From Alcaligenaceae bacterium CGII-47 (GTDB lineage Bacteria > Pseudomonadota > Gammaproteobacteria > Burkholderiales > Burkholderiaceae_B), in contig JAHTBO010000006.1 of the NCBI GenBank assembly GCA_019166125.1, positions 1-64,000 of the forward strand: a DNA stretch of 64,000 nucleotides, written 5' to 3'. Below, one piece after another: positions 664-15,875 of the stretch. Every line of letters begins with the position of its first letter. Within the stretch, counting starts at the first letter, position 1. The notes under the pieces were generated by a model. That model was not told where the DNA came from. It searched no databases and worked only from the letters and a program-made list of their open reading frames with translations. Position numbers and translations under genes: made by a program.

Positions 664-2175
664 TTATAGGCGAAAAAGGCTGCGGATGCGTGTCAATATC
701 GCGTCCTGCCTGTGTGTGCTTTGGGTGTGCTGCATTTGTTCCTGTAATGTGCTGCGTTGCTCGCTACGTTCGGCGAGTAATTGGGCAAAGGAATCAGCAA
801 GCTCTGGACGATTTTGCAACATGACCTGAAACGCCTCCTTGCTTAAGGCATAGCATTCCACATCGCTTCGCGCACTAAGCGTCGCGCTGCGTGGTTCGCC
901 CGTCAGAACGCTCATTTCACCCATGACCTGCACGGGCTCAAGCACTGCCAAAGGGTGGCGTATGCCTTTGTCCTCTAGCCAGACGTCCACCTGCCCGTAT
1001 ACCAGGATGAATAAACAATCCCCGATCTCACCTTGCCGGGTAATGGTAGAGCCTGGGGCATAAGGCTTTGGCTGCAATTGTTCCGCCAATTGCTCACGTT
1101 CGTCCTGGGTCAGTACGCTAAATAAGGGCAGGCCATCAAGCACCGCCTTGCGCCTATCGCTATTTTGCTGGTACGGGTCGCCCGCCGCAGTGGCCGCCCC
1201 CGCTTCCAGCCGAATATCCCGATTGGGGGCAGCCATGCGCCAACCCTGGCGGCGAAACAAAGCATGCAGATGCTGGCGAATCAAGGCGTCGCAGGTGCCG
1301 GGGGACTCGGGATCGGTCAGTGAATACCGCACGGCGTATTGCAAAACCCCATCGACAAAATCAGTAATGACACAGGTCGGGGCGGGGCTGCTGGCAATGC
1401 CTGGCAGATCCGTCTGCCCAAGTGCCCGCTGGACCTCGTCGATGACACGACCCGAAGGCATGTCAAAGTCACAGTAAAATTTGACGATACGCAGACGCAT
1501 GGGCGTCGAAGGCCCGCCGGTGAGCATGATCCTGGACTTCATGAGCTGGCTATTGGGGATCAGCACCAGTTCCCCGAACAAAGTACGCACAGCGGTATGC
1601 CGCCATTGCACTTCAATGACGCGTCCACCTATGGTATCGAGCTGGATCCAGTCCCCAATATGAACGGAATGATCCAACTGTAAGGCTAGCCCGGATAGAA
1701 TATTCCCCAGGGTATCTTGCATGGCAAACGCCAGAACCGCCGTCAGCACCGCCGTGCTGGCCACCAGGCTACCCAGATCCAAGCCGCCGGCAGACAAGCG
1801 CAACAGCAACCAGATGACGTAGGCCAAGAGTATCAGGAGCTCCTCCAGGATACGAGGAGGACGCATGCCAAGCCTGGGCACCAATAGTCGAAACAGCGTT
1901 AGGCCAACCTGACGAATCAATGTCATGCCCAACACCAGAATGGCTAATTGCGAGAAACCGTTGGCCAGACCCACCGAGCCAACGGTGGCAGTTGCCGCAC
2001 CAGCTAGCACCAACACGGTGAAGGACAACAGCATTTGCAGTGCAAACACCAAGGCTCGGCGGGTGACCCGGCTGAGGATCACACCTAACACCAGCACGCA
2101 GGTCATCGCCAGGAAATAATAGGGCAGCCAGGCCTGAACCAGGTGTTCAAAGAAAATCGCCCAATATGCAGTCAT
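664..2175 (-). CDS. MscS-family channel with C-terminal cyclic-nucleotide-binding domain
   Basis: A 503-residue inner-membrane protein. About four membrane helices fill residues 1-130, followed by an MscS pore helix and beta domain (about 135-230; motifs FAMQDTLGNILSG and GDWIQLD) and a cNMP-binding domain (about 345-470). The phosphate-binding cassette GEMSVLTGEPRSAT is intact, with Gly419-Glu420 and Arg429, so nucleotide binding is expected. This is the architecture of bacterial cyclic-nucleotide-gated (bCNG) channels, which respond to cyclic nucleotide more than to tension. The start at 2175 is chosen because its ATG overlaps the stop of the upstream cyclase gene in an ATGA; an in-frame ATG at 2208 would lie inside that gene. 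It is the last of four coupled genes. Ligand identity (cAMP or cGMP) is inferred from the neighbours. Confidence 0.88.
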   Translation of the reverse strand: MTAYWAIFFEHLVQAWLPYYFLAMTCVLVLGVILSRVTRRALVFALQMLLSFTVLVLAGAATATVGSVGLANGFSQLAILVLGMTLIRQVGLTLFRLLVPRLGMRPPRILEELLILLAYVIWLLLRLSAGGLDLGSLVASTAVLTAVLAFAMQDTLGNILSGLALQLDHSVHIGDWIQLDTIGGRVIEVQWRHTAVRTLFGELVLIPNSQLMKSRIMLTGGPSTPMRLRIVKFYCDFDMPSGRVIDEVQRALGQTDLPGIASSPAPTCVITDFVDGVLQYAVRYSLTDPESPGTCDALIRQHLHALFRRQGWRMAAPNRDIRLEAGAATAAGDPYQQNSDRRKAVLDGLPLFSVLTQDEREQLAEQLQPKPYAPGSTITRQGEIGDCLFILVYGQVDVWLEDKGIRHPLAVLEPVQVMGEMSVLTGEPRSATLSARSDVECYALSKEAFQVMLQNRPELADSFAQLLAERSEQRSTLQEQMQHTQSTHRQDAILTRIRSLFRL

Positions 2176-4472
2176 GACTTGCTCTCGTGATCGTAAATCG
2201 CCTGCCATTGCGTCGGCAGCGAATCCAGGTCAGTGCCGACCATCCTGGATAAATAGATTGAGTACAGGGTATTGCGCGCGGGATCCTCGACCAGCAATGA
2301 CGCCAGCAATGCCTGCGCGGCTGGCCACCGGCGCGCGCGATAATGGTCGATTGCGCGGGTAAAGCTTGCTACCTGCGCTTTTAAAACACTGTCGGCTTCA
2401 TGCAGTAGGCAGATTGGCTGAAATATTTCCACGGGCTCGGCCTTTCCCTTGACACGAATGCGATCAACCGGGCGATACAGAAAGCCATCTGCCTGGCGGC
2501 ATGTCGCCTCAGGGACCAGCACGGGCAAGCCATAGTAGCGGGTCAAGCTTTCGATGCGAGACCCCAGATTCACGGCATCCCCCAGCACCGTGTACGCACG
2601 CCGGTAGCTCGAACCCATATCACCTACGCTCATTGACCCAGTGCTAAGGCCTAGCCCGATTTCAAAGAGCGGCAGCCCCTGTTGTTGAAACGCATCGCGT
2701 AAGGCTACCATGCGCTGTTGCATCGCCAAAGCAGCACTGACCGCATGCTGGGCATGATATGGATCATCCAGCGGTGCATTCCAAAACGCCATCACCATAT
2801 CGCCGACATACTTGTCTATCGTGCCATGATTGTCAAAGATCACCTGGGTGACGGCAGATAAGTAGATATTCAGCAAATGCTTAAGCTCTGCCGCCGATAG
2901 CAATTCTGAAATTGCGGTGAAGCCTTGTATGTCGGCAAACAATACGGTCATTTCGCGCTGTTCGCTTTCCAGGGATACCAGATCCGGGTGCATTACCATA
3001 CGTTCGACATAGGCGGGTGGCACGTACTCGCCAAACAGATCCTGTATTGCGCGTTTTTGCCGGTTTGTTTTCAGATAACCGGCAATCACATTGAAGGCCG
3101 TCAGGCTAAACACCATCAACAGCGCCATGGCCAAAGGCAATGCAATATGCGCATAGCGCCACAGCAGCAGATTAAATCCGACGACCACGCTTAGCCACAC
3201 CGACGACACAATCAGCATCCAGAACGGCGTTCTGCCTGGCAAGGCAAGCGTCAGCAGCAGTCCCGAGAGAAAAATGATCAGGAATGTGGCGCCTCGTTCC
3301 CAGTCAGGTCGGTAATAAAAGGTGTTTTCCCCCATCGCCGCCTGCAAAATCGTGTCAAGGACATTGGCATGCGCCTCGACACCTGGATAGGCTGTCTGTA
3401 AGGGGATGGTGCGTAAATCGCTTAGGCCCAGGGCCGAGGTTCCCACCAGGACCAGCGCACCGTCCAGCCGTTGTAACTGTTCGGAGGGCGCGTCCGCGCG
3501 CAGCACATCCGTTGCGGAAATGACTGGATAAGAGCCCGCGCCGCCGCGATAGGGGACCAGCAACTGTGCCTGGGCGTCGACTGGCACTTGCACTTCATGG
3601 CCGATCTGTATGCCGACCACACGCTGACGCGTATCCGCATCGGCAAACAAAAGTTTCAGCCATGGCGCCCCCAATGCCACGCGCGCCATCTCTAAAGCCA
3701 GCGAGGCATAGACACCCGTTCCATGTCGTATTGCCAGGGGCAGGCGGCGCACAATACCATCTGCATCGGGAATGGCCACGATAAAACCGGCACTCAGGGC
3801 ATTATTCGTCAATTGCTCTAGGTTGCTGGTGTAATCCGGCATATTAAAGAGCGTAGAGGCTGCCGCGTCCTGGGCGCTTAGCTCTAGAAACGGAAACGGT
3901 AAGGCACCCGTCTTGCCGCCATCGGCATGAAAAAAATAGCCCAGCATGACATTACTGCCCAGCGCCGCCGCCAGGGTCGAGTCCCCATCGAATACGGGTA
4001 ATAGCTCACGCAAGACCTGGCGCGTGTCGTGGGCCAAATTGGCGGCTGATAATACGGTTTGCGCCGGATTCACACCAGGTTCGGAAAATACGGCATCGAA
4101 ACCGATCAGGGCGGCCTGCTGATCCTGCAAGGCCAGGACCAGCTCGGCAACCTTGGCACGATCCCATGGCCAGCGGCCCTCCCGTTGCAGCGTGCGTTCG
4201 TCAATATCGACGATGACAATCGGGATCTGCGCCGGCCGTTGTGGTGGCAAGGCCTGGAATCGCCAGTCATATAGCAGGGAATCCAGGCGGTTGATGCCGG
4301 TACCATGCGCTGGATCATAAGACGTTAAAAGATGAATGGTCAGCACCGCTACGGTCAGCAGCGCACTGGCAAATACTTGCCAGCGACGCCACAACCACAG
4401 CCAGGGGATCTTCACACTCAACGCGCTACTGGGTGAGGCCCGCTGTGCCGATCGCCCCTTGTGAATTCCCAT
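2172..4472 (-). CDS. CHASE2-domain class III adenylate/guanylate cyclase
   Basis: A 766-residue membrane cyclase. A TM helix (31-50) leads into a periplasmic CHASE2 sensor (about 60-390), three more TM helices (about 395-465), and a cytoplasmic cyclase domain (about 500-690). Catalytic residues appear complete: metal-binding Asp514 and Asp558, substrate-specifying Lys554 (IDKYVGD) and Thr628 (AYTVLGD), and transition-state Asn635 and Arg639 (VNLGSRIE). Lys plus Thr fits class IIIb enzymes, so cAMP is the likely product. The start overlaps the end of the FecR gene by 47 bases, and the stop overlaps the channel gene by 4. CHASE2 domains sense unknown periplasmic signals; here the FecR and TPR/barrel proteins are candidate partners. 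Confidence 0.9.
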   Translation of the reverse strand: MGIHKGRSAQRASPSSALSVKIPWLWLWRRWQVFASALLTVAVLTIHLLTSYDPAHGTGINRLDSLLYDWRFQALPPQRPAQIPIVIVDIDERTLQREGRWPWDRAKVAELVLALQDQQAALIGFDAVFSEPGVNPAQTVLSAANLAHDTRQVLRELLPVFDGDSTLAAALGSNVMLGYFFHADGGKTGALPFPFLELSAQDAAASTLFNMPDYTSNLEQLTNNALSAGFIVAIPDADGIVRRLPLAIRHGTGVYASLALEMARVALGAPWLKLLFADADTRQRVVGIQIGHEVQVPVDAQAQLLVPYRGGAGSYPVISATDVLRADAPSEQLQRLDGALVLVGTSALGLSDLRTIPLQTAYPGVEAHANVLDTILQAAMGENTFYYRPDWERGATFLIIFLSGLLLTLALPGRTPFWMLIVSSVWLSVVVGFNLLLWRYAHIALPLAMALLMVFSLTAFNVIAGYLKTNRQKRAIQDLFGEYVPPAYVERMVMHPDLVSLESEQREMTVLFADIQGFTAISELLSAAELKHLLNIYLSAVTQVIFDNHGTIDKYVGDMVMAFWNAPLDDPYHAQHAVSAALAMQQRMVALRDAFQQQGLPLFEIGLGLSTGSMSVGDMGSSYRRAYTVLGDAVNLGSRIESLTRYYGLPVLVPEATCRQADGFLYRPVDRIRVKGKAEPVEIFQPICLLHEADSVLKAQVASFTRAIDHYRARRWPAAQALLASLLVEDPARNTLYSIYLSRMVGTDLDSLPTQWQAIYDHESKS

Positions 4473-6033
4473 CGTCGATCATATAACCGACGCCAGCCTG
4501 CTCTGCATTTGGGCCGGCCAGAAACCCGTTGATAGTTGCCGAACATATCGAGCCGCATGGGTTGCCATTAATCGTCACATCAGGTGAGATAAATGAGAAG
4601 GCGTCCTGGGTGCTTGTCGAGTTCAGCACAGAACCGGGTAGGGAGCTTGCCCCGTAGGTGGTACTGTTGCTCATGCTCACCCCCATATCAAAGCCATAGG
4701 TCAGACTTGTCAAATCAATCTGCAGATTGAAAAAGTCCAGAACACCAGTATCGGCTAAATTCATTGAATTCCCCCGCACGGTTGATCCACCAGCCAAATG
4801 GTAGTTCAGCGTACCGATTGGCAGGGTCTGCACAGGGGCCACACCAATTACATACGGCATGTATTGTCCAGGCCCTGGCGACACGGTTGTGCCCCCTAGT
4901 GTGCCCGTGCCATTGGTGAACTCGCCCCAACTGATATTACCTAAGGTGCCGACCATGCCGGGTTCCACCTGCAGGCTGCCGATATTAAAGCCGGCTATTC
5001 CGCCAACACTAGTCACCGCGCCAGTGCCTGGGTCAAATTGCGCGGAAAAGTCATTGGGATCGGTAGAGGCGTAATACGTCGGGGCCGTCGTAAATCCAGA
5101 CAAGAGATACCCCCCCCCATCAGGCAGAAAGGAGGGCGCAGGGGGTGGCGGCGGGCCAGATGGCGTAGACGGACCGGATGGAGTGGATGGACCAGATGGG
5201 GCGGACGGCCCTGCTGGTGTGGACGGCCCCGACCCCAGGGCGAAGCTTTCCATGATTTTATACGGCAGGGGAAGGTCTTGCCTCGTGTCTGAAGGATAGG
5301 AATCCTGGTTAATCAGGCCTTGCACACCCGCCACATCGCCCCCAATGCCGGCTGCCAGATACTGCGGCCCTTGCTCGGTGGACTGAGGCGCAGAGCCCAG
5401 CGTCACCACTGCATTTCCGCCTGCGGGCACCTCCAGCGTTCCCTGGTCATTCGTGATGACGACCTTGCCCTTGCCAACGTGCACGCGCAAGGTATTGGGT
5501 GGGTTCAGGACGGCAATATATTCCGTTCCCCGTATGCCCAGTGTTGCGACGGGTGTTTTCAACTGATAGCGATCATGCTTGACTCGACCGATCGACCCTG
5601 TGATCGTACGCATACCGCCGCGCAGCATGCCAAAAACCAGTGAGCCGTCCTCCTGGGCCTGGCCTTCATGCTGATACTCATCGACGGAAAAGGTGGTGCG
5701 CGGCATCAACGAGACCAGCCCCCCATCCGTAAAGCGCATTTGTATACGTCCGTTCTCGGCGGTGTCTATCGTATCCCCACCAAATATCTCCGCATCTTTT
5801 TGCAAGGAACGGGGTGCCGAGCCAGTGGCTGTGGCAGTGACAACACCGCTGACAAAGTTGACGTTGGCGGCGAGTTCGGCAGACGCTGGCGCCTGCAGCA
5901 TGAACAGGCCAGCCAAAACCACCAGCCAATAAAAGGACCATCGCCGCCTCACATGGGGGGGGCTCCCAAGGCCGCCGAGGTAGGTATGAGCTCGGCATCC
6001 AGCGTTTTCCCGGAAATTAGAAAAGTTCATAGC
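4426..6033 (-). CDS. FecR-domain periplasmic protein
   Basis: About 535 residues. An N-terminal hydrophobic segment (WLVVLAGLFMLQAPASA) is a likely signal peptide or anchor. A FecR domain follows, with the typical stretch GDTIDTAENGRIQMRF and then LKTPVATLGIRGTEY. After it comes a Pro/Ser/Gly linker of GPSTPS-like repeats and a long C-terminal region of no known family that is poor in charge and rich in Gly, Thr and Ser. Such FecR proteins often sit next to CHASE2 cyclases and are thought to work in the periplasm. The start at 6033 is favoured over 6099 because it gives a 17-base overlap with the gene before it. A run of nine G (minus strand) falls between the linker and the C-terminal part. 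Confidence 0.82.
   Translation of the reverse strand, partial: AMNFSNFRENAGCRAHTYLGGLGSPPHVRRRWSFYWLVVLAGLFMLQAPASAELAANVNFVSGVVTATATGSAPRSLQKDAEIFGGDTIDTAENGRIQMRFTDGGLVSLMPRTTFSVDEYQHEGQAQEDGSLVFGMLRGGMRTITGSIGRVKHDRYQLKTPVATLGIRGTEYIAVLNPPNTLRVHVGKGKVVITNDQGTLEVPAGGNAVVTLGSAPQSTEQGPQYLAAGIGGDVAGVQGLINQDSYPSDTRQDLPLPYKIMESFALGSGPSTPAGPSAPSGPSTPSGPSTPSGPPPPPAPSFLPDGGGYLLSGFTTAPTYYASTDPNDFSAQFDPGTGAVTSVGGIAGFNIGSLQVEPGMVGTLGNISWGEFTNGTGTLGGTTVSPGPGQYMPYVIGVAPVQTLPIGTLNYHLAGGSTVRGNSMNLADTGVLDFFNLQIDLTSLTYGFDMGVSMSNSTTYGASSLPGSVLNSTSTQDAFSFISPDVTINGNPCGSICSATINGFLAGPNAEQAGVGYMIDDGNSQGAIGTAGLTQ
5110..5118 (-). repeat. G9 homopolymer tract inside the FecR gene
   Basis: Nine consecutive C on the plus strand read as GAT-GGG-GGG-GGG-TAT on the coding strand (Asp-Gly-Gly-Gly-Tyr). 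It is the longest single-base run I noticed in the window. A one-base slip would truncate or alter the C-terminal half of the protein. Confidence 0.9.
5140..5235 (-). repeat. Pro/Ser/Thr/Gly low-complexity repeat region in the FecR gene
   Basis: The coding strand carries imperfect in-frame repeats of an 18-base unit encoding Ser-Gly-Pro-Ser-Thr-Pro, ending in a run of prolines. It links the FecR domain to the C-terminal part. Changes in whole units would keep the reading frame. Confidence 0.8.
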
Positions 6034-7405
6034 GCAAGTTAATAGTGACGGTATGCCGTTGATAGTCAAACAGCGGAATGGATGAATCGCTGACGGCAAA
6101 GCGATACTGGGGGCGCAAGGATAGTTTCCGATTCAGCGCATAATTGAACCCAAGGTACCCCTCGTAGTAGGTGTCGGTGCGACGCTCGAGAAACAGGATC
6201 TCTTGTCCATCGTAACGGCGGTGCTCTGCGCTGGCACCTGCCTCTATCTGTGTGCGTGGTGTGACCATATACATGCCGCCAACCCGCACACCCTGAAACG
6301 TGTGCTGAAAGCTATTGGGGGCATTATTGTGTTTATTGTCCTCCCGCCCCAGATAGCCACTACCGTACACGACGGCACGATTCCCCGCCAGCCCCTGCGC
6401 CCAGGAGACGCCGCCGACATAGCGATAGGCGTCACGCAAACGCATATTCGGGTAGCGCAGCTCGCTGACCTGGCCGAAGGCGCTAAATTCTGCATCGTCT
6501 GACACCGTGTACGCGTATTGGCCCAGCAGGCCAAGCAGGTTACGGTAGTCGCGGCCGTCCAGATTGTAGTGCTGGCCTTGTATCTTGCCTGTGAACTGGT
6601 GTCGATAGGCCTTATAGCTCAGGCCCATCCCCGCATCGGCCACCGCGTTGTTGTAGTCTTGTGTTGCCCAATATCCCGTGCCGGCCAGGTTGCCATCGGC
6701 CACAAAGCGCCAATTGCCATTCAGGGGTGTCGAATATCGGATATTGAATGCGGCCTGGTTGAATCCGCTATCACGTTCACGATTCTCTGGGCTAAGCTGC
6801 ATGCGTAGATTTCCAAGAAACGGTACGGCAATACTGTCCTTTGAGGTCGCATTATTGATATTGCTGTCGTAGCCCATCCCCAGCTGTACATAAGCACGCA
6901 GGCGCGTGTCGTCGTGGCCGGACTCAGTGCCGGTGAGTTCATCCAGATAATCAGTAATGGCGTTCGCAAGCTGTGTGGGCGGTGCTGATTGGGCTAGCGT
7001 ATGCAGCTCGAGGCGGGCGCTCTCGGTTTCGCTCAGTGCCATATGGGCACGCGCCATACCCAGACGACATAGACCATTCTGGGGCTGTACAGACAAACAG
7101 CGCTCGAAGGCGAACGCCGCATGGGTTGCCTCGCCCGAGCCCAAGGCGGCCTGCCCCAACAGGTAGTCGTAGGACGGTTGACCAGCAAGCTCGCCCAGCA
7201 AAGGCAACAAGATCCCGTATGCCGTCCTGGCCTGCCCAGAATTCAGCCAATCCTGGGCTTTACCCAGTGTATCGTGGTGGTCTAGCGCCCCAACGGGGTG
7301 GGGGAGTCGTTCTGCCATCACCTGGGCCGGCGTCACCAGGGCAAGGCCTGCACATAAAAAAACAGCGCATACGCACTGCTGCACCCATCCATCACGACTG
7401 ATCAT
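6017..7405 (-). CDS. TPR plus outer-membrane beta-barrel protein (Slam/DUF560-like)
   Basis: A 462-residue protein with a signal peptide ending near AQVMA. It has an all-helical TPR-like part (about 45-160; LGQAALGSGEATHAAFAFERCL) and a C-terminal region of alternating strands from about 170 onward. The barrel begins RAYVQLGMGYDSNINNATS and ends with aromatic-rich strands and a terminal Phe (INLRYELF), typical of an outer-membrane barrel. This layout matches the surface lipoprotein assembly modifier (DUF560) superfamily. It is the first gene of the cyclase operon and overlaps the FecR gene by 17 bases. A role in surface sensing or in exporting a partner is inference from context only. Confidence 0.72.
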   Translation of the reverse strand: MISRDGWVQQCVCAVFLCAGLALVTPAQVMAERLPHPVGALDHHDTLGKAQDWLNSGQARTAYGILLPLLGELAGQPSYDYLLGQAALGSGEATHAAFAFERCLSVQPQNGLCRLGMARAHMALSETESARLELHTLAQSAPPTQLANAITDYLDELTGTESGHDDTRLRAYVQLGMGYDSNINNATSKDSIAVPFLGNLRMQLSPENRERDSGFNQAAFNIRYSTPLNGNWRFVADGNLAGTGYWATQDYNNAVADAGMGLSYKAYRHQFTGKIQGQHYNLDGRDYRNLLGLLGQYAYTVSDDAEFSAFGQVSELRYPNMRLRDAYRYVGGVSWAQGLAGNRAVVYGSGYLGREDNKHNNAPNSFQHTFQGVRVGGMYMVTPRTQIEAGASAEHRRYDGQEILFLERRTDTYYEGYLGFNYALNRKLSLRPQYRFAVSDSSIPLFDYQRHTVTINLRYELF

Positions 7406-7500
7406 CCGCTACTCTACCTTAGCTGCTACGACTCAAATAGAGCCCTATTCTCTATTAACTTATGTCAACTTGCAATCTTTTCGGTATTATCTACGGTCTT

Positions 7501-7529
7501 TTGTAATTAAACAGTCAATTCTTTATGAT
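7501..7529 (+). promoter_or_regulatory. Probable sigma70 promoter of cpdA
   Basis: TTGTAA (7501-7506) and TATGAT (7524-7529) are separated by 17 bases. The start of transcription would fall near 7536, leaving a leader of only about ten bases before the ATG at 7547. On the other strand a TTGACA (7463-7468) may belong to the divergent operon, but no good -10 pairs with it. Confidence 0.55.
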
Positions 7530-7546
7530 TAGAATGTGTGGAATGA

Positions 7547-8404
7547 ATGAATGACACCCGGCCGCCTGATCGACCTATCACCATCGTTCAGGTCACAGAC
7601 CCCCACCTGTATGGCGATCCCGCCTGCCGCTTGCTAGGTGTCCAAACCGACGCCAGCCTGCGTGGGGTGTTGCAGCATATCATCGCGCACCAACTGGATA
7701 TCGACCTACTCTTGGCCACGGGGGACATCACCCAGGACAATAGCGTCGCCGCCCACAAACGCTTTCTGCGGCTCGCGGCGGGCGTCCCCGCCCCCTTGCG
7801 CGGTCTACCTGGAAATCATGACGCGGGCCCAAGTTTTCATCAAATCTGGCGCGGGCATGCCGACCCGATCATGGATATCGGCAATTGGCGGCTCATTTTG
7901 CTCGATACCCGGGTTCCTGGTTCTAACGCCGGCAGACTGGGGGATGATCAGCTCGAACTGCTATTTTCAGCAGCCAAGCAAGCTAAGCACAAACATCTAT
8001 TGATCGCCATGCACCACAATCCCGTACCCATGGGCAGCGCCTGGCTGGACGCTATGATGCTCGCGAATCCTGACGCACTGTTCGATACTTTGCGGCAACT
8101 TCCCCAAGCCCGGGCGATCCTCTGGGGCCACGTCCACCAGGAATACGATGGCACCTACGACCTCAATGCCGCGCCCGACCCGCAAAAGCCCGAAGACGCC
8201 ACATACACGCCGCATCGGCTGCGGCTCTTCTCTACACCATCGACTTGCGTGCAGTTCACGCCTGGCGGACAGACATTCAGCCTGGATAGCGTCGCCCCTG
8301 CCTACCGCTGGCTCGTCCTGCAGCCCGATGGTAGCCTGGACACAGGCGTGACTCGGGTAGAAGGACTGGGCTTGAAGCCCAGCATGGACAGCAGCGGATA
8401 CTAA
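7547..8404 (+). CDS. cpdA: 3',5'-cyclic AMP phosphodiesterase, CpdA-like metallophosphoesterase
   Basis: A 285-residue cytoplasmic class III cyclic nucleotide phosphodiesterase. All dinuclear-metal motifs are visible in order: TDPHLYGD, ATGDITQD, LPGNHD, AMHHNP and GHVHQEYDG. It is about the length of E. coli CpdA (275). It is divergent from the cyclase operon, with 141 bases between the two starts, so the enzyme that would destroy the cyclase product sits next to the one that makes it. Three overlapping ATGs occur at the start; the one at 7547 is in frame. No strong Shine-Dalgarno is seen. Family members can also act on other phosphoesters, but the neighbourhood supports cAMP. Confidence 0.85.
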   Translation: MNDTRPPDRPITIVQVTDPHLYGDPACRLLGVQTDASLRGVLQHIIAHQLDIDLLLATGDITQDNSVAAHKRFLRLAAGVPAPLRGLPGNHDAGPSFHQIWRGHADPIMDIGNWRLILLDTRVPGSNAGRLGDDQLELLFSAAKQAKHKHLLIAMHHNPVPMGSAWLDAMMLANPDALFDTLRQLPQARAILWGHVHQEYDGTYDLNAAPDPQKPEDATYTPHRLRLFSTPSTCVQFTPGGQTFSLDSVAPAYRWLVLQPDGSLDTGVTRVEGLGLKPSMDSSGY

Positions 8405-8442: not shown

Positions 8443-8524
8443 CAAGCCCACCAGCCGTCGCAACATAGCGTATTTTGGATAGTGCTTCCGCGATGCCCCA
8501 ATCAATATGTTTCACGGAGAAGCA

Positions 8525-9079
8525 ATGAATATATCGAATTTTTCGCGTATCTTGCCGGCAATTGCACTGTCCCTCATGGCAGGGGCGGCTGCTTCGCAAA
8601 CACTCACGCCCCGCGAGCCTGGGTTGTGGGAGATCCGCATAGACAAAGGTTCCCAAATGGCCAACGCGATGAAAGGCATGGCCGACATGCTGCAAAATAT
8701 ACCCGCTGCCCAACGCAAGCAGATGGAACAAATGATGAAAGACTCGGGCGTGTCGCTTAGCAATCCGACGGTCATCAAGCAGTGTGTAACGCCAGAAATG
8801 GCCGCTCGCGGGTTTGAGCCTCAAATGGATGACGCGGACATGAAGTGCACAAGCAAAATGAAAGATGTGTCGAAAACCGAGAGCCAATTTAGCTTTTCGT
8901 GCCAAGGCCCCGAGGGAAAACTGGAGGGTGAGGGTCGTGTGCTGGACGCCACGGCCAAAAGTTACAAAACCGAGATGAAAATGTCCGGTGACATCGAGGG
9001 CCAGCCCGTGTCTATGGACATGGCACATGAAGGGCGCTGGTTAGGCAAGGATTGCCAAGGCATCAAGCCGCTGGGCTGA
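8525..9079 (+). CDS. DUF3617-family periplasmic protein
   Basis: A 184-residue protein with a cleavable signal peptide (MNISNFSRILPAIALSL, cut near AAASQ). The mature part opens with the family hallmark PREPGLWEIRI and has spaced cysteines (KQCVTPEMA, KCTSKM, FSCQG, KDCQG) expected to form disulfides in the periplasm. The start at 8525 is preferred over an ATG at 8507 because a GGAG box lies 7 bases upstream and the signal peptide begins there. The Met- and Lys-rich mid part (about 35-60) is probably helical. Function is unknown for the family. It converges on the sdh operon. Confidence 0.8.
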   Translation: MNISNFSRILPAIALSLMAGAAASQTLTPREPGLWEIRIDKGSQMANAMKGMADMLQNIPAAQRKQMEQMMKDSGVSLSNPTVIKQCVTPEMAARGFEPQMDDADMKCTSKMKDVSKTESQFSFSCQGPEGKLEGEGRVLDATAKSYKTEMKMSGDIEGQPVSMDMAHEGRWLGKDCQGIKPLG

Positions 9080-9179: not shown

Positions 9180-9959
9180 TCACACCGTTCGGTTGATCAA
9201 TAGTTGTTTGATCTCGGCGATGGCCTTGGCGGGATTGAGGCCCTTGGGGCAGGTATTGGTGCAATTCATGATGGTGTGGCAGCGATAGAGCTTGAAGGGA
9301 TCATCCAGATCATCCAGACGTTCGCCGGTTGCCTCGTCGCGTGAATCGGCGATCCAGCGGTACGCCTGCAGCAATACCATGGGGCCAAGGAAACGATCCG
9401 GATTCCACCAAGAGCTTGGACAGGCCGTGGTGCAGCACGCGCATAGAATGCATTCGTACAGGCCATCCAATTTCTTTCTGTCCTCGGGCGATTGCAGACG
9501 TTCGCGCGTACCAGGCACGCTCTGGGTTTGCATCCATGGCTTGATCGACGCATATTGCGCGTAGAGATGGGTAAGGTCAGACACCAGGTCCTTTACCACC
9601 GGCATGTGCGGCAGGGGGTAGACGCTAACAACGCCCGGTGGAAGTTCATCCAGGCCCTTGGTACACGCCAGCGTATTTTCACCGTCGATATTCATCGAGC
9701 ACGAACCACATACCCCTTCGCGACATGAGCGGCGCAGTGTGAGCGTGGGGTCGATCTCGTTTTTGATCTTGAGCAGTACATCCAGAACCATCGCAGAACC
9801 GGTGACATCGACTTCGTAGGTGTCCACGCGCGGGTTGCCCCCCGCATCGGGGTCCCAGCGATAGACGCGGAAACTTCGAGTGTTTTTCGCGCCCGGCGTG
9901 GCAGCGTGGTGCTTGCCCTCTTGCACCTTGGATATTTTCGGCAATGTAAATTCAGCCAT
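9180..9959 (-). CDS. sdhB: Succinate dehydrogenase iron-sulfur subunit
   Basis: 259 residues. It carries three Fe-S clusters that pass electrons from SdhA to ubiquinone in complex II at the inner membrane. Cluster cysteines are plain: CREGVCGSC plus a later Cys for [2Fe-2S], [13 protein letters not shown] for [4Fe-4S], and [14 protein letters not shown] shared with [3Fe-4S]. It is slightly longer than usual because of an N-terminal extension of about 20 residues ([13 protein letters not shown]). It is the last gene of sdhAF4-C-D-A-B and lies 67 bases after sdhA. No sdhE or gltA follows; the next gene is convergent. Confidence 0.97.
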
Positions 9960-10026
9960 GTTTCTTCCTCAGGTTCGATAAGCCCTATGCATCCATGCGC
10001 GTATGTTGATCCCCGGCATGGGCGGT

Positions 10027-11823
10027 TTAATAGACGCGCTTGGCGGGCGGGATGCTTTCTACCTCGTCACTTAGTGGGTTTGAGTGCACTGGTCGATGGT
10101 CGAAGGAACAGACGCCTTTGTCGTCCACGTTGACCAGCGTGTGTTTCATCCAATTGACGTCATCGCGTTCGGGAAAATCCTCGCGTGCATGCCCGCCGCG
10201 AGACTCGGTACGCTGCGCGGCCGAATGCATGGTGCCCACCGCTTGTCCCAGCAAGTTGGCCAGCTCGAAGGTCTCGATCAGGTCGGTGTTCCAGATCAGC
10301 GACCGGTCGCTCACGCGGATGTCGGCGAGTTGGGCATTGATCTTGTCGATCTTCCTGCAACCTTGCTCAAGCGTCTCGGCGGTACGAAACACTGCTGCGT
10401 CGGCCTGCATCGTTCTTTGCATCTGCAGGCGTAATTCTGCCGTGGGTGTGTCGCCGTTAGCGTGTCGCAAGCGATCAAGACGGGTCAATGCCGGCTCTAG
10501 CACATCAGAGGGCAGGTCACGGTGTGATGTGTGGGGCTTGACCACTTCGGCGCAGCGGATGGCGGCCGCCCGACCGAATACGACGATGTCCAGCAGCGAG
10601 TTGGTGCCCAGACGATTGGCGCCGTGCACCGACACACACGCACTTTCGCCAATCGCGAATAGTCCGGGCACCACCGCATCGGGATCATTGCCGACCTTTT
10701 GCACCACTTCGCCATGGTAATTGGTGGGGATGCCGCCCATGTTGTAATGCGCAGTTGGCAGCACCGGGATCGGTTCCTTTGTGACATCTACGCCAGCAAA
10801 GATGCGCGCCGTCTCGGAGATGCCCGGCAGGCGCTCGTGCAGCGTGTCGGCGCCAAGGTGCGCAAGGTTCAGGTTAATGTAATCTGCGTGTTCTCCCAGG
10901 CCGCGCCCTTCACGAATTTCCATGGTCATCGCGCGACTGACCACGTCGCGCGAGGCCAGATCCTTCACATGCGGCGCATAGCGTTCCATGAAGCGCTCGC
11001 CCATGGAATTGGTGAGGAAGCCGCCTTCGCCACGTACGCCCTCGGTGATCAGGCAGCCGGCGCCATAGATACCGGTCGGGTGGAACTGCACAAACTCAAG
11101 GTCCTGCAGCGCCAGGCCAGCACGCAGCGCCATGCCGCCGCCATCGCCCGTTTGAGTATGTGCACCCGTACAGGAAAAATACGCCCGTCCGTATCCCCCG
11201 GTGGCCAGCATGATGGCGTGGCCGCGAAAAAAATGCAGGCTGCCCTCGTTGAGGTCAATCGCAAGTACCCCCACAATGCGGCCGTCGGCAGGGTTTCTTA
11301 TCAGATCCGTGGTGAAATATTCGACAAAGAACTTGGCATCGTGCTTGAGTGCCTGGGTGTATAGCGTGTGTAGGATCGCGTGGCCGGTACGATCGGCCGC
11401 AGCGCAACTGCGTTGTGCGATACCTTCGCCGTACCGAGTTGTCATGCCGCCGAACGGGCGCTGGTAGATCTTGCCGTCTTTCGTGCGCGAAAACGGTACG
11501 CCGAAATGTTCCAGTTCGATGACTGCCGGGACCGCCTCGCGGCACATGTACTCGATTGCATCCTGGTCGCCCAGCCAGTCACCACCTTTGACGGTGTCAT
11601 AAAAGTGATAGCGCCAGTGATCCTCGCCCATATTGCCCAGTGCTGCGGCGATTCCACCCTGTGCGGCAACGGTATGCGAACGCGTTGGAAACACCTTGGT
11701 CACGCAAGCGGCCGACAAGCCCTTGGCAGCGAGCCCCAAGGTCGCACGCAAGCCCGCGCCGCCAGCGCCGACCACCACCACGTCGTATTCATGTGTATGG
11801 ACTTTATAGCTTTGTGCAGGCAT
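10027..11823 (-). CDS. sdhA: Succinate dehydrogenase flavoprotein subunit
   Basis: 598 residues, the normal length. It oxidises succinate to fumarate with covalently bound FAD. The N-terminal dinucleotide fold ([15 protein letters not shown]), the FAD-linking His in SHTVAAQGG, and the active-site region around [16 protein letters not shown] are present. The C-terminal part holds [13 protein letters not shown] and EDFPERDD. It lies 33 bases after sdhD in the operon. FAD attachment would be helped by the SdhAF4-like protein encoded at the head of the operon. Confidence 0.97.
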
Positions 11824-11856
11824 GGACTCCCTTTTTGACGGAATTTAATCTCAGTG

Positions 11857-12264
11857 TTATAGGTCTACGCCCAGCCAGATCGCCAGTACCGCAAGTACGC
11901 ATGCCAGCGCAGCGAGGAGGGCGCCAAAACGCAAGGCGATTTGCAGCGTGAGCTCCAGCCAGCGCGTGTGCACGTAGTCTTCGATAATGACCTGCAGGCC
12001 AAGTGCGCCATGCCAGAAGAGACTCAGGCTCAGTACGATCAGCAGAGTCGCGTGCACCGGTTGCGCGATCGCGGCCAGTACCATTGGGTAGCTGGCATGT
12101 ATCAGCGTCCCCATAAAGAACAGAACCCAGATCGAGAGTGGAATCAGCGCGATAGCGGTGACTCGTTGCAGCCACCAATGATGCACGCCCGACTTGGAGG
12201 AACCCAATCTGCGCGCGACCTTGAGCGGCGTGCGAAGCGAATCCTGGCCTGGATAAGCGCTCAT
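11857..12264 (-). CDS. sdhD: Succinate dehydrogenase membrane anchor subunit
   Basis: 135 residues with three membrane helices, anchoring SdhAB and forming the quinone/haem site with SdhC. Visible features are SGVHHWWLQRVTAIALIPL at the start of helix 1 and FWHGALGLQVIIEDYVH near the haem region. The ATG at 12262-12264 overlaps the sdhC stop in an ATGA, so an upstream in-frame ATG at 12300 is rejected. Confidence 0.92.
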   Translation of the reverse strand: MSAYPGQDSLRTPLKVARRLGSSKSGVHHWWLQRVTAIALIPLSIWVLFFMGTLIHASYPMVLAAIAQPVHATLLIVLSLSLFWHGALGLQVIIEDYVHTRWLELTLQIALRFGALLAALACVLAVLAIWLGVDL

Positions 12265-12680
12265 ATTGATCCCCCAATTCGCAAAGCCAGAAGCATCCAC
12301 ACCAGTACCGTGAGTACGATGCTCAGGCCGATCACGAGCCAGCCTGTGGACCAGTAGACGGGGTTGTGCGCGCGGTCACGCGTGGGCGGGCCGAAGTTCA
12401 TCCCCATGTCGCGAACCAGGTGCTGTATACCGTTGCACAAGTGAAACAACAGCGACCACGTCCACAAGACCAGTAGCAACACACCGAACCAGCTACCGCA
12501 AAACCCCGCGAACACGCGCCAAGTGACTTCCCCGGTCGCTGCGGCGATCAGTCCCCAAGCCACCAGTAACGCACCCAAGCACAGGAACAGTCCTGTGAGC
12601 CGGTGCAGCGTCGACTGCAGCATGTTGACGCGCCAACGATAAACGCTAAGGTGAGGGGATAGTGGTCGAGTATTGGCCAT
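12261..12680 (-). CDS. sdhC: Succinate dehydrogenase cytochrome b556 subunit
   Basis: 139 residues, three membrane helices. Signature stretches are RPLSPHLSVYRW at the N-terminus, LHRLTGLFLCLGALL in helix 1, and LFHLCNGIQHLVRDMG, which holds the haem-ligand histidine region. The start at 12680 has an AGGAG box eight bases upstream; a longer frame beginning at 12746 would run into the preceding small gene. It overlaps sdhD by four bases. Confidence 0.93.
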   Translation of the reverse strand: MANTRPLSPHLSVYRWRVNMLQSTLHRLTGLFLCLGALLVAWGLIAAATGEVTWRVFAGFCGSWFGVLLLVLWTWSLLFHLCNGIQHLVRDMGMNFGPPTRDRAHNPVYWSTGWLVIGLSIVLTVLVWMLLALRIGGSI

Positions 12681-12712
12681 GCTTAAGCTCCTGCTCAGTG
12701 CCCACGTCAACT

Positions 12713-12874
12713 TCAAAAATCGATGCAGCGCCCGTTTTTTTCCCAATCGCCGTAGCGCGTCGGGTCGAGTCCATCACCTTCGGGTGTTGCTCGCTCGCGT
12801 GCCGCTGTGCCCGGCATAGCCACGGAAGCAGACGTAGATTCGGGTGCGGCCGTATCAGTCGATTTTTCGTCCAT
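12713..12874 (-). CDS. SdhAF4-like succinate dehydrogenase assembly factor (DUF1674)
   Basis: A 53-codon gene easily missed because of its size. The last part reads GLDPTRYGDWEKNGRCIDF, the conserved C-terminal signature of the DUF1674/SdhAF4 family; the first half is Ala/Thr/Ser-rich and likely disordered. An AAGGA box lies upstream of the ATG at 12874. In mitochondria SdhAF4 binds flavinated SDHA and promotes assembly of complex II; the bacterial homologues are presumed to do the same. It heads the sdh operon, 32 bases before sdhC, which fits. An overlapping longer frame (12646-13029) in another register has no such motif. Confidence 0.87.
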   Translation of the reverse strand: MDEKSTDTAAPESTSASVAMPGTAARERATPEGDGLDPTRYGDWEKNGRCIDF

Positions 12875-12921
12875 GGTCTGTAATCCTTAGACACCGCTTC
12901 TCGCAACGTTTGACCAGGTTT

Positions 12922-12951
12922 ACTATACGCTGATGACAGTTGATGTGTCCA
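12922..12951 (-). promoter_or_regulatory. Probable sigma70 promoter of the sdh operon
   Basis: On the minus strand TGGACA (12946-12951) and TATAGT (12922-12927) are 18 bases apart, each matching consensus at five of six positions. Transcription would start near 12915, giving a leader of about 40 bases to the SdhAF4-like gene. Confidence 0.55.
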
Positions 12952-13031
12952 TCGGCGTGAACGCATGGATATCTTGCTTATCCTTTGATCGCAGTCGTCA
13001 CGCACAGCGCCCATAATTGGGGCACACATGA

Positions 13032-15875
<2,844 letters not shown>

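Follow-up and report, generated by a model that had tools for sequence, protein, structure and literature searches.

In Campylobacterota, a CHASE2 adenylate cyclase has been described, in the part of the study available to us, as clustered with a phosphodiesterase, a FecR-domain outer-membrane protein and a tetratricopeptide repeat (TPR) protein (Mo et al., 2022, PMC9239204). In Sinorhizobium meliloti, according to excerpts of two reports, signalling through the CHASE2 cyclase CyaK needs the outer-membrane beta-barrel NsrA (PMC13001267, PMC7529298). As for the type 11 secretion system (T11SS), an excerpted source presents TbpB, fHbp and the haemophilins as cargoes and states that for most outer-membrane proteins of this system no cognate cargo is known or predicted (PMC12282271). 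We describe here a five-gene unit found near one end of a 64,000-nucleotide stretch of DNA from Alcaligenaceae bacterium CGII-47 (contig JAHTBO010000006.1), which is called the window throughout. In the order of transcription, four genes of the reverse strand encode a TPR-SlipAM outer-membrane barrel, a FecR-domain protein, a CHASE2 class III cyclase and an MscS-type channel fused to a domain which binds cyclic nucleoside monophosphates (cNMP); the fifth gene, cpdA, encodes a CpdA-type phosphodiesterase and is divergent from the barrel gene (Table 1). With a probability of about 0.55, we infer that the five genes form a trans-envelope cyclic AMP (cAMP) module, with the channel as its dedicated output.

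The proposed mechanism would begin at the outer membrane, where the TPR-SlipAM barrel would handle the neighbouring FecR protein and its predicted cargo-fold C-terminal domain. This cargo barrel would sit at, or pass, the outer membrane, and its state would be relayed, on the periplasmic side, from the FecR domain to the CHASE2 domain of the cyclase. The catalytic domain of this class III enzyme, whose key residues are all in place, would convert this input into cAMP, which would in turn bind the intact cassette of the MscS-type channel and alter ion flow across the inner membrane. The system would be reset by the phosphodiesterase, a CpdA family member expected to hydrolyze cAMP.

An earlier note on this DNA, which had dealt with the cyclase, channel and cpdA genes, had proposed a closed circuit making, sensing and removing cAMP. 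The three genes and their motifs lie where it had placed them, as do the six catalytic residues of the cyclase; Pfam agrees with the gene assignments and the channel carries the intact cNMP cassette that had been claimed. The circuit is not closed as stated, because there is a predicted outer-membrane input arm which that note had missed. In the same way, cpdA is indeed divergent, but its partner is the four-gene run headed by the barrel, since the FecR and barrel genes, both unmentioned, occupy the interval in between. The idea that the make-sense-remove set is kept as a unit has fared well, as the relatives of this locus indicate.

The five genes are co-inherited as a unit. When the channel was searched in the contigs of named genomes, with the best 80 of 229 relatives kept, all five genes were found together in the window and in four further loci: L051 (Alcaligenaceae CGII-43), L052 (Go_Leine bin 102), L054 (CGII-56) and L056 (Allopusillimonas ginsengisoli SBSA). 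Two contigs of Castellaniella sp. clean661 (L055; contigs L147 and L148) jointly hold all five genes. The contig of L053 (CGII-64) starts inside the FecR gene, with FecR, cyclase, channel and cpdA present, and that of L057 has the channel only, at its end. The phosphodiesterase gene changes place yet stays attached: it lies upstream and divergent from the run in four cases (the window, L051, L052 and L147), and L053, L054 and L056 have it downstream on the strand of the other genes. No other open reading frame (ORF) of at least 100 residues in the first 20 kb of the window matches the loci of the relatives at 1e-20, so that cpdA remains tied to the cluster amid different flanking sequences. 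Among 121 genomes of the family, a close cyclase (at least 55% identity), the channel and cpdA coincide in five, the window genome (G000), G187, G217, G238 and G247, the last four being the genomes of L051, L052, L055 and L056, respectively. In the four other members of the genus which were sampled, cyclase, channel and cpdA are all unmatched at the cut-offs.

Table 1. Features of the five-gene unit, by position in the window.
Feature	Coordinates	Strand	Evidence
MscS-type channel with C-terminal cNMP-binding domain (bacterial cyclic nucleotide-gated, bCNG, type)	664..2208	-	PF00924, PF00027; orthologues in L051-L056
cNMP-binding domain with canonical cassette GEMSVLTGEPRSA	811..1068	-	Pfam, aligned cassettes
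MscS beta-domain, residues 165-227	1528..1716	-	Pfam
CHASE2 class III cyclase	2172..4472	-	Pfam, catalytic residues, alignment to 3r5g
Cyclase catalytic domain	2436..2960	-	sole class III match in genome
CHASE2 sensor domain, residues 53-405	3258..4316	-	Pfam
FecR-domain protein, 534 residues: FecR domain, Pro/Ser-rich linker, C-terminal cargo-type barrel	4426..6030	-	
C-terminal domain of FecR protein, residues 300-534, predicted fold of TbpB C-lobe, NHBA, fHbp and HphA	4429..5133	-	model
Low-confidence linker of FecR protein, residues 226-300, Pro/Ser repeats	5131..5355	-	pLDDT
FecR domain, residues 83-233, predicted fold of PupR cell-surface signalling domain	5332..5784	-	model
Outer-membrane TPR-SlipAM (T11SS/Slam type) barrel protein	6017..7405	-	PF04575, model
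Intergenic region between the divergent units, 141 bases	7406..7546		
CpdA-type phosphodiesterase	7547..8404	+	NCBIfam PRK11148; metal motifs

The FecR protein has, by eye, a signal-peptide-like N-terminus, and at an E-value of 0.001 the FecR family alone passes in Pfam (PF04773; 43.8 bits, cut-off 24), with neither TbpBBD nor lipoprotein C among the matches. Its AlphaFold model, based on 27 sequences, reached a mean predicted local distance difference test score (pLDDT) of 75 and a predicted template-modelling score (pTM) of 0.50; the N-terminus and the linker are of low confidence, with pLDDT below 50 at residues 226-277 and 279-300, and two parts are better predicted. VIA-align aligned the modelled FecR domain with PupR (6ovk_R; Z 16.0, root-mean-square deviation (rmsd) 2.6, 135 residues aligned) and residues 85-233 with 4m0n (Z 14.3), and likened residues ~300-534 to NHBA (Z 12.8), TbpB (Z 12.6) and fHbp (Z 11.6); no residues other than 177-233 and 299-534 are covered by at least a fifth of the matches listed. 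Foldseek likewise related the model to TbpB (E 3.6e-07) and HphA (E 3.2e-05). Its rank-one TbpB matches were discarded as whole-protein matches, being weak (rmsd 17-20 across both domains), and for this reason the fold claim rests on the domain-level VIA-align results. The FecR protein would thus join a PupR-like signalling domain to a barrel of the TbpB/NHBA/fHbp type, a fold used by T11SS cargo. NHBA is itself a T11SS cargo. In relatives, the cargo domain is found in tandem, with two copies in L154 (where the ORF is cut by the contig end) and L158, three in L199, L200 and L224, and four in L156, whose cargo-repeat ORF (2379-7160) has no Pfam match, the FecR match of that region being in another ORF. 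The ORFs with three or four repeats (L156, L199, L200 and L224) are about 1000-1600 residues long.

The barrel protein matches PF04575 at 56.3 bits (cut-off 22), and its model, based on 11 sequences (pLDDT 84), shows TPR-like helices at residues 44-158, 14 long strands and two short ones. In the available part of a study of this family, 14 predicted strands are contrasted with 16 for PgaA, and a periplasmic TPR domain is described in NilB (PMC8406197). The 50 PDB matches listed by Foldseek are porins and other outer-membrane barrels, including the sugar-polymer exporters BcsC and PelB, with no Slam among them; assignment to the T11SS/Slam family therefore rests on PF04575 and on the topology. 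A sequence search for solved relatives of the FecR protein or of the barrel returned nothing useful. The FecR protein is, in sum, encoded next to a type 11 exporter homologue.

In the cyclase, Pfam recognizes CHASE2 (4.7e-57) and Guanylate_cyc (3.7e-17). The metal, substrate and transition-state residues (D514, K554, D558, T628, N635 and R639) are all present, in a part of the protein which could be aligned with CyaB, a solved domain of which is available as 3r5g; the Lys/Thr pair of the cyclase is also found in the aligned CyaB. In class III cyclases, this pair favours ATP. A search of the window genome for class III and class I cyclases retrieved this single class III enzyme and no class I enzyme, the class I model having matched E. 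coli alone among 14 control genomes. The predicted product of the enzyme is cAMP. The phosphodiesterase has metal motifs and a Metallophos domain (1.3e-13), and scores 82.6, with a cut-off of 400, against the model of SpdA, which acts on 2',3'-cyclic nucleotides; its predicted substrate is cAMP.

The channel fuses an MscS beta-domain (2.8e-16) to a cNMP-binding domain (cNMP_binding, 1.3e-20), an architecture which suggests gating by cyclic nucleotides. Among the 11 cNMP-domain proteins of the window genome, ten of which were aligned to the cNMP profile while the one below its limit (L228) was read as a translated ORF, the channel alone has the canonical cassette GE..R-[ST]-A; the nearest other cassette, that of L139, has R-K-Y in place of the canonical residues. 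As a positive check, aligned domains of solved cGMP kinases show GE..R-[ST]-A. To our knowledge, cNMP-domain proteins which lack the cassette arginine do not bind cAMP. In four carrier genomes with 40 cNMP proteins (11, 7, 7 and 15), including all 29 of the three further carriers (of which L256 and L257 are too poorly aligned to judge), a widened cassette pattern fits the channel of the locus every time. Its residues are R-S-A in three carriers, including G187 and G217, and R-R-A in G247, and R-R is found at the same place in several relatives of the channel. One other protein passes this pattern, L250 of G247. This singularity of the channel in the window genome suits a private circuit, in a count which covers cNMP-domain proteins and which cAMP receptors without such a domain would escape. 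The strict motif was abandoned as sole criterion, having found only 38 of the 80 channel homologues; a wider pattern found 74 of the 80 but also the window-genome ORFs L134, L136, L137 and L139, in matches outside the aligned cassette or the cNMP gene, and aligned cassettes were therefore judged by eye. In a plasmid collection, the channel protein is unmatched at 1e-40. As a side observation, L250 has a canonical cassette and, by eye, a TIR-like second domain.

The wider distribution of these genes was surveyed in the order and in the phylum. Of 150 genomes of the order, window genome included, 87 gave a match to the cyclase and 31 to the channel, with at most seven cyclase and ten channel candidates scored per genome and distances taken among the matches listed. 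Around 39 cyclase loci (40 regions), which were drawn from the top matches of the order and family searches rather than at random and some of which are cut by contig ends, a barrel gene is found in nine, a FecR gene in 15, cpdA in four and a cNMP gene in 11. The last figure compares with about two expected from the density in the window genome (11 in 3.45 Mb), in a set of loci which are related and non-random. A general pairing of CHASE2 cyclases with a channel proved false, an MscS-cNMP gene being present in only four of the 39 loci. With at most four candidates scored per genome, the FecR query matched 121 of 300 order genomes at 1e-12, most listed matches covering the FecR domain only, and the barrel alignment matched 30 of 398 phylum genomes at 1e-20, including the window genome. 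The 31 regions which hold all 32 barrel matches outside the window contain a FecR gene in 24 cases, a CHASE2 gene in 13 and a cNMP gene in one, and three (L300, L301 and L310) have a CHASE2 cyclase, counts which are lowered by contig ends in some regions.

Four CHASE2 genes which adjoin FecR genes in these regions (L295, L304, L305 and L317) all encode hybrid histidine kinases according to Pfam. The barrel-FecR pair hence looks like a wider input unit, placed beside CHASE2 sensors with different outputs. In L301, which belongs to another class, a run of barrel, FecR and CHASE2-cyclase genes is followed by that of a SulP permease with STAS and cNMP domains (2623-4818). In L144-L146, a FecR-cyclase pair is convergent with a cNMP gene, which in the only copy scanned (L144:10881-13343) encodes a pyridine-nucleotide oxidoreductase with two cNMP domains and 4Fe-4S ferredoxin domains. 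Downstream in L160 lies a cNMP-rhodanese protein, and cNMP ORFs are similarly placed in L171 and L173. Other neighbours of CHASE2 cyclases were noted in passing: a CHASE2-Ser/Thr kinase ORF recognized by Pfam about 1.6 kb upstream (L151:7878-10448), ORFs placed like this kinase in many order loci and matching only weakly, and only the cyclase query, and, at a distance of about 4 kb, an ORF whose membrane-protein part looks YihY-like by eye and whose C-terminus is a cNMP domain (L149:2192-4951).

Several observations weigh against a trans-envelope module with a dedicated channel. In 26 other genomes of the order which match both cyclase and channel, no listed pair is close together: the pair is on one contig and more than 100 kb apart in three (G054, G068 and G112), and on different contigs in 23, where a draft assembly could hide closeness. 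Moreover, 14 of the 26, read as regions around the best cyclase, show no MscS gene. The cyclase-channel pairing, as seen, is therefore confined to one clade; when the arrangement was looked for in related genomes, as the earlier note had proposed, it was conserved within this clade and had no near listed pair in those 26 genomes. Within the family, two fragmented genomes hold incomplete sets, G214 with a partial channel (40%) and no match to cyclase or cpdA at the cut-offs, and G182 with a partial cpdA without the other two genes. The 31 barrel regions contain neither MscS nor cpdA genes by the profiles used; the cargo domain occurs in six of them, in three cases without FecR, FecR is often found beside the barrel without a cargo domain, and no Pfam family marks this domain at sequence level. 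The correlation among the five proteins in their pairwise identities (0.96-0.99 across five loci) counts in favour of the module but may be due to the species tree and to plain descent, and the CpdA equivalog PRK11148 is reached by a marginal 227.9 bits for a cut-off of 225. By analogy, the S. meliloti FecR protein SMc02177 and TPR protein SMb20495, both Clr targets, are not required for plant signal perception, according to an excerpt of the report concerned (PMC5498481). The weakest step of the mechanism is its topology, since a wholly secreted FecR protein could not meet CHASE2. The linker of the FecR protein is compatible with two arrangements, in which the protein either spans the outer membrane as a tether or senses that export has failed. 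A tentative and, as it stands, rather doubtful proposal is that of a surface-tethered receptor derived from a T11SS cargo, with the cargo barrel outside, the Pro/Ser linker threaded through or past SlipAM, a periplasmic FecR domain switching the cyclase, and cAMP directly gating the channel.

Other explanations of the locus were considered. It is unlikely, for instance, that the locus is chiefly a surface-protein export operon, in which SlipAM would export the FecR-barrel protein and cAMP and the channel would adjust envelope physiology or report export load, with no outside ligand sensed. The proximity of a SlipAM family member to a cargo-type fold, the barrels adjoining cargo-domain proteins without FecR match (L292, L293 and L313) and the repetition of the cargo domain, up to four times, in relatives are consistent with such an operon; however, the frequency of FecR and CHASE2 genes in the barrel regions fits signalling better than export alone, and the fold predicted for the FecR domain is one known from signalling. 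Should cAMP mainly serve regulators encoded elsewhere, of the CRP/FNR type or unrecognized, the channel would be co-located without being the main target. This is quite improbable: although there are ten other cNMP-domain proteins in the genome, L250 also passes the cassette pattern in one carrier, and S. meliloti CHASE2 cyclases are described, in the available excerpts, as feeding the regulator Clr, the GE..R-[ST]-A cassette is absent from all ten of these proteins and from the six others in each of G187 and G217. We regard as very unlikely that the channel serves as an MscS-superfamily valve for osmotic relief which cAMP merely tunes, in a locus responding to osmotic or envelope stress. The MscS beta-domain is compatible with it, and the title of one paper on bCNG channels reports a member gating in response to tension, but its association with cyclase and phosphodiesterase genes, which is conserved, points to control by a ligand. 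Finally, a chance neighbourhood of functionally unlinked cpdA, channel and cyclase genes is scarcely credible and was already disfavoured. It could appeal to the cpdA homologues of 37-52% identity in 24 further genomes of the family which lack the remaining genes of the set (G182 excluded), yet the overlaps are conserved, cpdA moves and is nonetheless retained, the genes are absent together in members of the genus, and no flanks are shared.

Regarding gene starts, the overlap of the cyclase and channel genes seen by the earlier note amounts to 37 bases in the genes as called, a length which probably results from a start placed too early; it was set aside as an exact value, as a later in-frame ATG fits better. 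With this ATG, the two genes share four bases (ATGA) at the stop of the cyclase, and the true start of the channel is likely at 2175. In relatives, the start/stop overlap is of one base (L051 and L052) or four bases (L054 and L056). The FecR gene is better started at 6030 than at 6099, because a matching MNY opens the protein in each of its five closest relatives. In the intergenic region, promoter-like matches were found on the + strand only, with a total count near chance, and scans for promoters and terminators found seven and six, respectively, against 4.7 and 7.3 in shuffled sequences, and were therefore given no weight.

Directly downstream of cpdA, on the same strand, lies the gene of a DUF3617 protein (8507-9079), unmatched in the loci of the relatives. 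Further on, at 9180-15875, are an aconitase gene and a second set of succinate dehydrogenase genes, identified by eye from the sequence. A further sdhB-like gene (59% identity) is on contig C40 of the window genome, and the nine other genomes of the genus have one sdhB match each at 1e-80.

The clustering of FecR, TPR, CHASE2-cyclase and phosphodiesterase genes is already in print, as seen in the available part of one study (PMC9239204). What appears to be new, in the literature searched, is the channel as local output and a cargo-type FecR protein beside a SlipAM barrel: among the results listed from the open-licence literature of PubMed Central, a coverage outside which most subscription papers fall, neither the combination of a CHASE2 cyclase and a bCNG channel nor a FecR protein bearing a T11SS cargo barrel was described. 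As the conserved locus may both produce and degrade the ligand of a bCNG-type channel encoded next to these enzymes, it offers a defined system for studying the function of such channels, and for some of the T11SS proteins without known or predicted cargo, a candidate which bears FecR and is encoded near CHASE2 sensors provides a direct and testable hypothesis. If the tethered-receptor reading were true, an event outside the cell would be turned into ion flow without a transcription factor, part of the uncharacterized environmental T11SS proteins would have a signalling role, and FecR-CHASE2 would be a generic input to swappable local cNMP effectors, such as the channel, the SulP permease or the oxidoreductase.

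Compared with FecR/PupR cell-surface signalling, the locus has the same FecR domain, by Pfam and by predicted fold, with a CHASE2 cyclase as neighbour instead; a Pfam scan of six locus proteins at E 0.001 recognized no anti-sigma part and no sigma-factor gene. With type 11 secretion and Slam, it shares the PF04575 barrel, the TPR N-terminus, the 14 long strands and a partner with a predicted TbpB-type C-terminal barrel. The words 'FecR' and 'cyclase' are absent from the main text of two papers on these systems (PMC8406197, PMC12282271), whereas here the cargo candidate bears a FecR signalling domain and adjoins a cyclase. The bCNG channels of the MscS superfamily have the same MscS beta-domain and C-terminal cNMP domain as the channel, which is here encoded within a cyclase run, with a start/stop overlap, and accompanied by a phosphodiesterase. 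These channels are reportedly the subject of Caldwell 2010 and Malcolm 2012, judging by their titles. In S. meliloti, NsrA, together with CyaK, CyaD1 and CyaD2, likewise combines an outer-membrane barrel with CHASE2 cyclases, a likeness drawn from the descriptions available, in which the output is the regulator Clr, whereas the output candidate is here a channel. The Campylobacterota cluster is described, in the available text, without a channel, and 'mechanosensitive' and 'SlipAM' do not occur in its main text (PMC9239204); in the present locus, by contrast, the run has a bCNG-type channel as its fourth gene, and a SlipAM barrel takes the part of the TPR protein.

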